Of a stretch of DNA of 64,000 nt, positions 15,291-18,952 are shown one piece after another. Made by a program: the position numbers and the translations under genes. The notes under the pieces were generated by a model. That model searched no databases. It worked only from the letters and a program-made list of their open reading frames with translations, and was not told where the DNA came from. Positions within the stretch are counted from its first letter, which is position 1; each line of letters opens with the position of its first letter. This DNA comes from an uncultured Bacteroidales bacterium (GTDB lineage: Bacteria; Bacteroidota; Bacteroidia; Bacteroidales; Paludibacteraceae): positions 1 to 64,000 of the forward strand of contig CAMHOY010000002.1 in NCBI GenBank assembly GCA_946186915.1, given 5' to 3'.

Positions 15291-15775
15291 TCGTTACCTT
15301 TTTCTTTGTTCTTTTTCCAAATCTTGAATGTATTCCAAATATCTTTCCATTCGCGTTGCGTGATATACCATGTGTTTTCTCTGCGCGGTGGACGATAAAC
15401 AGGACGTGTCTCTATTTGCACTTTACGTTTGAGTGAATCAAGATTATAGGCTTGAGTCAAGCTATCGGAATAGAGAAGCGCGTCTTGTTCCTCCGCTTTG
15501 TGAATACGCAGTTCGTCCACTGCCATCTCCGTTGCCGGATCATCATTCGGCATGGCTTTTATCTCTTCTACGACAAAGCGCACAAGGAAGAACAATCCGA
15601 TGAGAATCCCCATGACGAGCACTACAACCATCCCGTAATAGGCCTGCTTGTCCCGCATACGCAACGCTCCTCCAAGGCCTCTGTTGCGTTCATTCGGACC
15701 TATGTGATGATGGTGATGACGCTTCTTGTGTTTTGCTTCATCCCAGCCAGGTTGATATGTGTGCTCTTCCGCCAT
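15287..15775 (-). CDS. Small single-pass membrane protein, unknown
   Basis: A 162-residue protein with a basic cytoplasmic N-terminus carrying a natural HHHHH run (KHKKRHHHHHIGPNERN), one membrane helix at about residues 47-68 (YYGMVVVLVMGILIGLFFLVRFV), and a charged C-terminal region rich in Lys and Trp. I recognise no domain. It overlaps folD by 4 nt and its start shares the junction with the ffh stop, so it is translated within the ffh-folD-prfA operon. Conservation of this position next to ffh would suggest a membrane-biogenesis role; that is inference. Confidence 0.75.
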   Translation of the reverse strand: MAEEHTYQPGWDEAKHKKRHHHHHIGPNERNRGLGGALRMRDKQAYYGMVVVLVMGILIGLFFLVRFVVEEIKAMPNDDPATEMAVDELRIHKAEEQDALLYSDSLTQAYNLDSLKRKVQIETRPVYRPPRRENTWYITQREWKDIWNTFKIWKKNKEKGNE

Positions 15776-17079
15776 TAATGTCTGCGTCCGCTCATCTGTT
15801 GCACTTTGCGCATCATCTTTGATGTCTGCTCGAATTGTTTGAGAAAACGATTGAGCGCTACGATATCTACACCCGCCCCTTTTGCGATGCGGTTCTTGCG
15901 ACTTCCGTTAAGCAGGCTCGGGTTAGCACGCTCCGCCGGCGTCATGGAATTAATCATCGCTTCAATGGGTTTGAAGGCATCGTCACTCACCTCTACGCCT
16001 TTCAACGCTTTGTCCATACCCGGAATCATACCCATCAGATCCTTCATAGACCCCATCTTCTTGATTTGGTTTAATTGTCCGATGAAATCGTTGAAATCGA
16101 ATTGGTTCTTAGCAATTTTCTTTGATATACGCCGAGCTTCGGCTTCATCATATTGCTCTTGTGCGCGTTCTACAAGAGAAACAACGTCACCCATACCAAG
16201 AATTCTATCGGCCATACGAGAGGGATGGAACACATCAAGCGCCTCCATCTTCTCGCCGGTTCCGATAAACTTTATCGGTTTGTTTACGACCGATCGGATA
16301 CTCAGTGCTGCACCACCGCGTGCATCACCGTCTAATTTCGTGAGAACTACACCATCAAAATCCAGACGGTCGTTAAACTCCTTAGCGGTGTTCACTGCGT
16401 CTTGACCTGTCATGGCATCTACGACGAACAAGGTTTCAGACGGCTGGATAGCCTCTTTGATAGCCGCTATCTCTGTCATCATCTGTTCGTCCACTGCCAA
16501 ACGGCCAGCTGTATCTACAATCACTACGTCATAGCCGAATTTCCTGGCCTCAGTAATTGCGTCTTGCGCTTTCTTAACAGGGTTGGATTCGCTTTCTCCC
16601 GTGTATACTTTTGCGTTTATTTGCTCTCCGAGTACGCGAAGTTGCTCTATAGCAGCCGGACGATAGACGTCGCATGCCACGAGCATTACTTTTTTATTTT
16701 TCTTTGTTTGTAAATAATTCGCCAGCTTGGACGCAAAAGTAGTTTTACCACTACCTTGTAGACCCGCCATGAGGATGACCGCAGGCGAGCCTTTCAAGTT
16801 AATCTCTTGGGTTTCGCCACCCATCAACTCCGCCAACTCGTCATGGGTAATCTTCACCATCAACTGTCCCGGACGAACGGCCGTAATGACATTTTGACCG
16901 AGGGCTTTCTCCTTGACCTGATCAGTGAACTGCTTTGCTGTTTTGTAGTTCACATCGGCCTCCAACAGGGCTTTGCGGATATCTTTGACGGTCTCCGCGA
17001 TATTAATCTCGGTGATACGTCCTTCGCCTTTGAGAATTTTAAATGAGCGTTCTAATCTTTCTGATAAATTATCGAACAT
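15775..17079 (-). CDS. ffh: Signal recognition particle protein
   Basis: A 434-residue SRP54/Ffh GTPase. It has an N-terminal four-helix domain and a G domain with P-loop GLQGSGKTTFASKLA, VDTAGRLAVDEQMM and TKLDGDARGGAAL. The C-terminal Met-rich M domain (about 295-434) ends in MRKVQQMSGRRH. It binds 4.5S RNA and signal peptides and delivers ribosomes to FtsY. Its promoter is divergent from and adjacent to the tRNA-Gly/rnpB promoter, so two essential RNP systems share one control region. The leader is about 70 nt. Confidence 0.96.
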   Translation of the reverse strand: MFDNLSERLERSFKILKGEGRITEINIAETVKDIRKALLEADVNYKTAKQFTDQVKEKALGQNVITAVRPGQLMVKITHDELAELMGGETQEINLKGSPAVILMAGLQGSGKTTFASKLANYLQTKKNKKVMLVACDVYRPAAIEQLRVLGEQINAKVYTGESESNPVKKAQDAITEARKFGYDVVIVDTAGRLAVDEQMMTEIAAIKEAIQPSETLFVVDAMTGQDAVNTAKEFNDRLDFDGVVLTKLDGDARGGAALSIRSVVNKPIKFIGTGEKMEALDVFHPSRMADRILGMGDVVSLVERAQEQYDEAEARRISKKIAKNQFDFNDFIGQLNQIKKMGSMKDLMGMIPGMDKALKGVEVSDDAFKPIEAMINSMTPAERANPSLLNGSRKNRIAKGAGVDIVALNRFLKQFEQTSKMMRKVQQMSGRRH

Positions 17080-17150: not shown

Positions 17151-17182
17151 CAAAAGTAGTAAAAAAAAATCAAATATGCAAA
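17151..17182 (-). promoter_or_regulatory. Promoter of ffh
   Basis: Minus strand: TTTG (17179-17182), 20 nt, TACTTTTG (17151-17158). Its -33 element forms one arm of a palindrome (TGCAAAT-AA-ATTTGCA) whose other arm holds the -33 element of the rnpB-side promoter. Confidence 0.8.
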
Positions 17183-17186
17183 TAAA

Positions 17187-17218
17187 TTTGCACAATTCAA
17201 AAAAAAGTAGTACTTTTG
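17187..17218 (+). promoter_or_regulatory. Promoter of the tRNA-Gly/rnpB transcript
   Basis: TTTG (17187-17190), 20 nt, TACTTTTG (17211-17218). The transcript should begin about 15 nt before the tRNA. The -33 segment TTTGCACAATTC is identical to that of the GT2 gene promoter at 45694. Confidence 0.8.
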
Positions 17219-17236
17219 TAGCCGATTTTGAAAAAT

Positions 17237-17310
17237 GCGGTGTTAGCACATCGGTAGTGCATCGGCTTCCCAAGCCGAGGAGGCGGGTTCGATTCCCGTA
17301 CACCGCTCCA
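17237..17310 (+). tRNA. tRNA-Gly (anticodon CCC)
   Basis: A full cloverleaf: acceptor GCGGTGT/ACACCGC, D arm GCAC/GTGC, anticodon stem TCGGC/GCCGA with loop TTCCCAA (anticodon CCC) and T loop TTCGATT. The discriminator base is T and CCA is encoded (17308-17310). The next base, 17311, is the first base of the rnpB P1 helix, so there is no spacer between the two RNAs. Confidence 0.95.
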
Positions 17311-17596
17311 AGCAGGCCGGTCTATCGCGCCGAAAGGTGAGGAAAGTCCGGGCAGCACAGAGCACCGCAGCGGTTAATGGCCGTCAGGCAGAAATGTTTG
17401 GTCACTGCTACAGAGACGAGTCGCCTTCGGGCGGGTGAAACGAGCACACTGCGGGCTGCAATTCCATGTAAACCGATGTTTGAGCGTTGCTCGCGCGAGT
17501 CGGAGGGTAGGAAGCGAGAGAAGCCCGTGGTAACACGTGACTCGAGATTAATGATAGACACCCGCAAGGGTACAGAACCCGGCTTACAGGCCTGCT
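17311..17596 (+). ncRNA. rnpB: RNase P RNA (class A)
   Basis: The catalytic RNA that removes tRNA 5' leaders. It has the hallmark GAGGAAAGTCCGGGC near the 5' end, the GGTGAAACG segment in the middle and ACAGAACCCGGCTTA near the 3' end. The P1 helix is AGCAGGCC (17311-17318) paired with GGCCTGCT (17589-17596), which fixes both ends and a length of 286 nt, on the short side for type A. It directly follows the encoded CCA of tRNA-Gly, so one transcript carries both the enzyme RNA and a substrate at its 5' side. Confidence 0.95.
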
Positions 17597-17610
17597 TCCC
17601 TTTCTAGGGA
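17597..17610 (+). terminator. Weak hairpin after rnpB
   Basis: TCCCT-TTCT-AGGGA followed by only TTTC. It could be a weak terminator or a 3'-end processing signal. The yihY-like gene starts 29 nt later without a promoter of its own that I can see, so read-through is likely. Confidence 0.35.
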
Positions 17611-17638: not shown

Positions 17639-18952
17639 ATGAAGAAAATTTCCCAAATATCCGGATTTGTGCGCTACGACATGTGGCGGAGGACATCTAC
17701 GGAGATAGATAGCTGGTACAAACGTCTGGGATACATGGTAATACGTACTATCGCGTTAGTAGTACGCGGTTTCACAAGCAAAAATCTCAACGATCAAGCC
17801 AAAGCTCTCACCTACTCTCTTATTTTCGCTGTTGTACCTATTTTAGCTATGGTCGTAGCTGTAGCCAAGGGGTTTGGCGTCGCCGATGTAATTGAGCAAC
17901 AACTCAATGCATCGTTTCTCGGCGGGACAAATATGGTACCCACTATCATGGCAATGGTGGATCGCTATTTAGAGACTGCACAAGGCGGCTTATTTATTGG
18001 AATAGGAATTATAATACTCTTGTGGGCCATTTATTCTTTCTTTCAATCCGTAGAAACGGCCTTCAATCGTATATGGAATGTGAAAAAGTCGCGTTCTATA
18101 CTTCGTCAAGTGACCACCTATATTGCTATCGTGGTCTTAATTCCTGTGCTAATCGTTTGTTCGGCGGGTTTGAATATTTTTGTTCATTCAGCAGTAGAGA
18201 ATGCCGTTCATCTCGAAGCATTACATGAATCTTTGCATACGAGCGGAGTAAAATTTCTGCAGTTTATAATCTGCTGGCTGCTATTCACCATCATGTACGT
18301 AGCCATTCCAAACACAAAAGTGCGTTTTCTGCCGGCTGTTATACCCGGTGTTTTGATGGGTACGTTGTTCCAATTACTCCAGATGTTATCCGTCTATCTG
18401 ATAGCGCTCCTTGGTCGCACAAGTATTGTATATGGAGCGTTCGCATCTATCCCGATTCTTATGACCTGGTTGCAATGGACGAGTCTGCTTATTCTGATTG
18501 GTGCGGAGATGAGTTACGCCATCCAGAACAACGAAGAGTTTGAGTACGAACAGGACTTGAATGTGATGTCCCGCCGCTACAAAGACTTCATCATGTTATA
18601 CCTTTTATCTACAATAATTAGGCGTTTTGAGAACGACGAAGAACCCCTAACAGCACATCAACTTGCTATTCGCGATCATTTACCCATTCGTGTAGTCAAT
18701 CAGTTGTTGGGCAGAATGGTAGAGACAGGCTTGGTAAGAGAGGTTTATCATGAGGAAGAAGAGAAGAGTTATCAGCCTGCACTTGATACCCACAAGATTA
18801 GTATAGGGATGGTACTCGACCGTATTGATGCTCAAGGTGCAGAAGAATTTCTCACCTCACCTACCCCGGAGATGCAAGCTTTCTGGGAAAGGTATGTCGA
18901 AGTGAAAAAAAAGCATACTACGTTGAATGATATTTTAATAACTGATATATGA
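17639..18952 (+). CDS. YihY/BrkB-family inner-membrane protein
   Basis: A 437-residue membrane protein of the YihY/UPF0761 family (often mislabelled ribonuclease BN). It has six hydrophobic segments, starting with AKALTYSLIFAVVPILAMVVAVAKGF, and conserved stretches such as FFQSVETAFNRIWNVKKSRS and YGAFASIPILMTWLQWTSLLILIGAEM. A C-terminal cytoplasmic region (about 330-437) looks like a winged-helix module (LTAHQLAIRDHLPIRVVNQLLGRMVETGLV), common in Bacteroidetes members. The physiological role is unsettled. It lies just after rnpB and overlaps the amylase gene by 4 nt (ATGA). Confidence 0.88.
   Translation: MKKISQISGFVRYDMWRRTSTEIDSWYKRLGYMVIRTIALVVRGFTSKNLNDQAKALTYSLIFAVVPILAMVVAVAKGFGVADVIEQQLNASFLGGTNMVPTIMAMVDRYLETAQGGLFIGIGIIILLWAIYSFFQSVETAFNRIWNVKKSRSILRQVTTYIAIVVLIPVLIVCSAGLNIFVHSAVENAVHLEALHESLHTSGVKFLQFIICWLLFTIMYVAIPNTKVRFLPAVIPGVLMGTLFQLLQMLSVYLIALLGRTSIVYGAFASIPILMTWLQWTSLLILIGAEMSYAIQNNEEFEYEQDLNVMSRRYKDFIMLYLLSTIIRRFENDEEPLTAHQLAIRDHLPIRVVNQLLGRMVETGLVREVYHEEEEKSYQPALDTHKISIGMVLDRIDAQGAEEFLTSPTPEMQAFWERYVEVKKKHTTLNDILITDI

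Follow-up and report, generated by a model that had tools for sequence, protein, structure and literature searches.

A tandem of tRNA-Gly(CCC) and the RNase P RNA gene in a clade of gut Bacteroidales and its putative resolution by tRNA processing

Results and Discussion

In a clade of gut Bacteroidales, the RNase P ribozyme is, as judged from the genome sequences, probably transcribed in fusion with a tRNA, which is among its own substrates, and would then have to be released by cleavage. RNase P RNA, which trims tRNAs, is an essential molecule that in most cases is transcribed from a promoter of its own. In this clade its gene, rnpB, directly follows the gene for tRNA-Gly(CCC). This tandem is real, conserved and derived. 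It recurs in 58 of the 106 loci that were read in the genus and occupies a whole crown clade, so that it cannot be attributed to chance. We consider it likely that the arrangement represents tRNA punctuation, in which the promoter-less rnpB is transcribed downstream of the tRNA in one precursor and released by cleavage at the 3' end of the tRNA. What we infer from the gene order and its conservation is that the two genes share a transcript, which enzyme acts on it and where exactly it cuts.

Gene arrangement at the locus

The locus was found in a 64-kb stretch of DNA, which was analysed as a whole and is referred to as the window. The tRNA-Gly(CCC) gene, the single copy in the genome, lies on the forward strand at 17237-17307 (RF00005, 64.4 bits) with T17307 as the discriminator, while ARAGORN placed it at 17237-17310 by including a CCA at 17308-17310. 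It shows a cloverleaf scoring above the threshold, the CCC anticodon and U73. The rnpB gene follows on the same strand at 17311-17602. It was matched by RNaseP_bact_a (RF00010) at 17309-17602 over the full model (1-367) with 156.7 bits and an E-value of 1.3e-48, well above the curated score of 100 for class A RNAs. The P1 helix is formed by AGCAGGCC (17311-17318) and GGCCTGCT (17589-17596), and in 106 relatives substitutions on both strands alter the pair type at six of the eight positions, mostly with retention of the pairing. Compensatory changes were also observed among relatives in the acceptor stem of the tRNA (GCGGTGT/ACACCGC, GCGGCAT/ATGCCGC, GCGGCTT/AAGCCGC). In the predicted minimum free energy fold of the joint precursor, the cloverleaf and the P1 helix downstream of it both form intact. 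Thus ARAGORN, Rfam and the covarying P1 agree with the preliminary description, in which rnpB followed tRNA-Gly(CCC) with P1 starting at 17311, and the covariance-model match does not move this edge well downstream.

Behind P1, the fold contains a hairpin (TCCCT-TTCT-AGGGA, forward strand, 17597-17610), at which the terminator scan called no T run, so that it is not a clear terminator. A gene for a YihY/BrkB-family membrane protein (forward strand, 17639-18952; PF03631, 163 bits; TIGR00765) begins 36 bases past the end of the rnpB match, and no consensus promoter was found between the two. Its NCBIfam name is yihY_not_rbn, and the family was once mistaken in annotation for RNase BN, which acts in tRNA 3' processing. 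Members of the genus without the tRNA linkage likewise have yihY behind rnpB, so that the two genes stood in this order before the tRNA became linked. On the other side, ffh lies on the reverse strand at 15775-17079 (Pfam). The divergent ffh was rejected as a conserved partner, as it occurs upstream only in the source species and its nearest relative.

Promoters

The Bacteroidetes promoter pattern TTTG-N18-22-TAnnTTTG matched 12 times in the 64-kb window, compared to 1.0 expected in shuffled sequences. One match of the form TTTG-N20-TAnnTTTG (TTTGCACAATTCAAAAAAAAGTAGTACTTTTG, forward strand, 17187-17218) ends 18 bases ahead of tRNA-Gly and is the sole one in front of the pair; a near mirror image of it on the reverse strand (17151-17182) serves as the putative ffh promoter. 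The 5' leader of the precursor would comprise 17219-17236 on the forward strand with a start site near 17223. Many tRNA genes of the genome (L237-L267) share the transcript start sequence GCACCCGCTTTTGAAAA or close variants of it after the -7 box, and tRNA-Gly-rnpB (window 17219-17235) and ffh carry TAGCCGATTTTGAAAA / TGGCCGATTTTAGAT at this place.

Between tRNA-Gly and rnpB, the pattern search detected no consensus promoter in the window. The same holds true for the 58 linked loci: in none of them did the stretch from the tRNA to P1 show a promoter or so much as a single -7 box, also where the spacer exceeds 100 nt, while 55 of them carried a full promoter within 150 nt ahead of the tRNA. The earlier claim of one promoter ahead of the pair and none in between is therefore borne out. 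In 27 of 30 rnpB loci of other genera, in contrast, a -7 box was located 6-13 nt ahead of P1. Since no promoter lies between the genes in the 58 loci, compared to one at 6-13 nt before P1 in the other genera, the simplest reading of these sequences would be that rnpB has no promoter of its own and now depends on that of the tRNA.

Conservation within the genus

We were able to locate rnpB in 128 of 151 genomes of the genus. The 106 loci that were read comprise 26 obtained with a tRNA-to-rnpB pattern and 80 fetched by the position of rnpB, and tRNA-Gly(CCC) lies directly upstream of rnpB in 58 of them. On the rnpB tree, which resulted from a short search and contains some long branches, 53 of the 55 rnpB genes of the main clade are linked to the tRNA; in the two others the contig breaks off, about 91 and 38 bases ahead of rnpB. 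Further linked loci (L042, L083, L123, L081, L130 and L166, the last of which falls inside the genus on this tree) are placed deeper, beside relatives with a distant tRNA. In G175 and G277, tRNA-Gly lies 1.5-1.7 kb upstream of rnpB on the same strand, with one gene in between that by eye we presume to be trpB-like. One gain with losses as well as a few gains would both fit this distribution.

The two relatives with a distant tRNA, together with a spacer whose length varies between 2 and 176 nt within a single clade, would also be compatible with chance neighbours after a local rearrangement, in which the distance has no role in processing and rnpB is mainly transcribed from a non-consensus promoter inside the tRNA gene. 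Against this, the tRNA is retained in all members of the main clade whose sequence reaches far enough upstream of rnpB, and a consensus promoter lies between tRNA and P1 in none of the 58 linked loci but before the tRNA in 55 of them, which leaves this explanation improbable. Concerning adjacency, the locus corresponds to a tRNA-punctuated operon: the tRNA directly flanks rnpB without an intervening promoter.

The junction between tRNA and RNase P RNA

The preliminary description regarded the encoded CCA as the edge that defines the junction. To assess this trinucleotide (forward strand, 17308-17310), 40 other tRNA genes of the genome (L237-L267) were read. C74 was encoded in all 40, whereas CCA was found in only three. 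Likewise, CCA occurs in a minority of the linked loci, and most relatives carry C74 followed by unrelated bases. Encoded CCA is hence a rule neither for this gene nor for the genome, and these counts rule it out as the defining edge. C74 is a genome-wide tRNA feature, perhaps kept for pairing with the GGU in L15 of RNase P RNA, and the CA behind it is probably coincidental at this junction.

A zero spacer between the genes had also been proposed. In the source species this holds if the CCA is counted, but not as a conserved trait. Among the 58 linked loci, the distance from the discriminator T73 to P1 amounted to 2-6 nt in 32, 11-14 nt in 4 and 26-176 nt in 22 loci. The suggested synteny survey, carried out within the genus, thus recovered the tandem in 58 of 106 loci but not a conserved zero gap, and zero spacing as a conserved constraint is ruled out by the range of 2-176 nt. 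In the window, A17310 is able to pair with T17597, which would add one pair to the end of P1. Extensions of P1 into the tRNA trailer yielded 46 pairs compared to 20.4 +- 4.2 in shuffled flanks (0 of 5000), a difference that is inflated by relatedness and is to be taken as support, not as proof.

Proposed release of the RNase P RNA

Two enzymes of the proposed route are encoded in the genome: an RNase Z of 269 aa (NF000801, 264.5 bits with a cut-off of 252) and a nucleotidyltransferase of the CCA-adding family (PF01743, 87.2 bits). With tRNA-Gly(CCC) located between a stable-RNA promoter and rnpB, the latter would be made as the 3' part of the precursor. Pre-existing RNase P would cut the 5' end of the tRNA, and an endonuclease acting on its 3' side, most probably RNase Z, would cut after T17307 or possibly after the chance CCA at 17310. 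This one 3' cut would free the tRNA, which the CCA-adding enzyme then would complete, and the RNase P RNA would retain 0-3 unpaired bases ahead of P1. In the unlinked genera, transcription that begins a little downstream of the -7 box would likewise leave a tail of a few bases before P1, so that the tail of 0-3 bases is close to what an own start site would leave in relatives.

RNase Z cleaves directly after the discriminator (PMC7479834). Since the counts in the genome and among the relatives show that the CCA is not conserved in this tRNA gene, the cut would be expected after T17307. Some RNase Zs, however, cleave behind CCA (PMC7479834), which makes a cut after 17310 possible as well. The sequence and the comparative evidence are consistent with the earlier proposal of a ribozyme situated 3' to its own substrate, for which a single cut could generate both ends, and in the source species such a single-cut release is plausible.

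Three observations stand against this route. First, 26 of the 58 linked loci have a spacer of 11-176 nt, and because of this length a single cut could not produce a short 5' end of rnpB there. Second, in the clade containing the linked species, RNase Z (G000:C7:69057-69863, locus L303; relatives L304-L348) lacks about 45-50 residues that form the flexible arm, which is kept in basal members of the genus and in other genera. Since this arm is the tRNA-binding exosite in other RNase Zs, its absence makes the activity of RNase Z on tRNA precursors in the clade uncertain. Third, the source species carries CCA at positions 74-76, and CC or CCA at this place inhibits the RNase Z of B. subtilis (PMC7479834).

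The same observations would be explained by a maturation of the CCA type, in which a cut by an RNase E/G-type enzyme is followed by exonuclease trimming and the 5' end of rnpB is trimmed separately. CCA at 74-76 is inhibitory to many RNase Zs (PMC7479834), the RNase Z of the clade has no arm and the relatives with long spacers need a second step in any case. With 0-3 nt between tRNA and P1, however, there is little single-stranded landing site for an RNase E/G cut, and most relatives with the same junction have no CCA. Altogether, we regard this route as rather unlikely, though the strongest of the alternatives to tRNA punctuation.

The reduction of RNase Z is accompanied by a reduced RNase P RNA. 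P13/P14, usual in class A RNAs but not required for membership, are absent in the source species and its clade (a gap of 43 in the Rfam alignment); since the conserved core, P1 and J3/4 are present, the RNA was filed as a reduced class A RNA. Several species of the clade carry insertions elsewhere in rnpB, and the extracted lengths ranged from 254 to 516 nt. The loss of P13/P14 spans a clade slightly larger than that of the arm-less RNase Z, and both losses precede the tRNA linkage on the tree. Arm loss as a result of the linkage was rejected, because the arm is also gone in unlinked sister lineages and so came first. The three traits co-occur in the same clade, and we claim no causal tie between them. 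A natural ribozyme-substrate fusion that couples the production of RNase P RNA to tRNA 3' maturation or to cis cleavage, and that belongs to a broader reshaping of the tRNA processing machinery in the clade (arm-less RNase Z, RNase P RNA without P13/P14), is an improbable interpretation.

Autogenous control or control in cis, with a tethered RNase P RNA that cuts its own precursor or senses its own supply via tRNA processing, is very unlikely: the substrate sits immediately 5' of the ribozyme and artificial self-cleaving conjugates have been built (Frank, Harris and Pace 1994, as cited in PMC11143913), but the spacers are variable, RNase P cuts the tRNA 5' end and would not thereby free the 5' end of rnpB, and the conjugates have the substrate attached next to the region that binds it, in contrast to the attachment at P1 in the present tandem.

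tRNA-rnpB tandems in other bacteria

Among about 690 Bacteroidota genomes from outside the genus, a single one, of another family, matched the pattern (G591, locus L236), again with tRNA-Gly(CCC) and with 4 nt between the models. A scan of a collection of 85,462 species, with an exact-match pattern that leaves out most Bacteroidota and overlooks many variants of rnpB, resulted in 98 stretches, and in 16 of these Rfam confirmed a tRNA in tandem with rnpB. They belong to Marithrix, Eremiobacterota, Gemmatimonadetes, Bacillaceae, Tumebacillus, Paceibacter and one further bacterium. In Paceibacter, 4 nt separate the models. The Bacillaceae, including Priestia abyssalis, have a class B rnpB beside tRNA arrays, and the rnpB of Tumebacillus is also of class B. 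Since a TATAAT-like box lies in the spacer of L163 and L193, these two pairs may not be co-transcribed. Judged by these scans, the arrangement is rare and has arisen more than once.

Class B rnpB adjoins tRNA genes in L209, L211 (Priestia abyssalis), L168 and L232. In L209 and L168 it also lies beside 6S and large SRP RNA, and in L211 and L232 within a 5S-tRNA array; Priestia abyssalis contains two such rnpB loci on one scaffold.

A literature search retrieved no described bacterial tRNA-rnpB tandem, a weak result given that most subscription journals were outside its reach. RNase P RNA would be inherited across the clade as the 3' passenger of one of its own substrates, with similar tandems arising independently in other phyla. 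Such tandems offer natural test cases for a coupling of RNase P supply and tRNA processing, and the arm-less RNase Z of the clade makes the 3'-processing step directly testable.

Comparison with known systems

Ordinary Bacteroidetes rnpB genes from other genera of the same family share the TAnnTTTG promoter type and the class A RNA, but have their own promoter 6-13 nt before P1 and no tRNA. A joint transcript is known from yeast mitochondria, where tRNA-fMet, RPM1 and tRNA-Pro are listed under one promoter (PMC3797045): the RNase P RNA shares its promoter with tRNAs and is excised. In contrast to the bacterial class A rnpB with its junction of a few nucleotides, this unit belongs to an organelle, RPM1 ends up as fragments and tRNAs lie on both sides. 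The conjugates of Frank, Harris and Pace (1994), as cited in PMC11143913, likewise join a pre-tRNA covalently to RNase P RNA; these, however, are designed molecules, for which cis cleavage was shown. A further likeness is to tRNA punctuation in mitochondria and in bacterial tRNA operons, for example the E. coli lysT operon with 2 nt between valT and lysW (PMC11143913). There as here, the tRNA would act as the processing signal, the spacing amounts to a few nucleotides, and the cuts by RNase P and at the 3' side set the ends of the neighbours; the difference is that the neighbour released here would be the ribozyme component of an enzyme that itself takes part in the processing.
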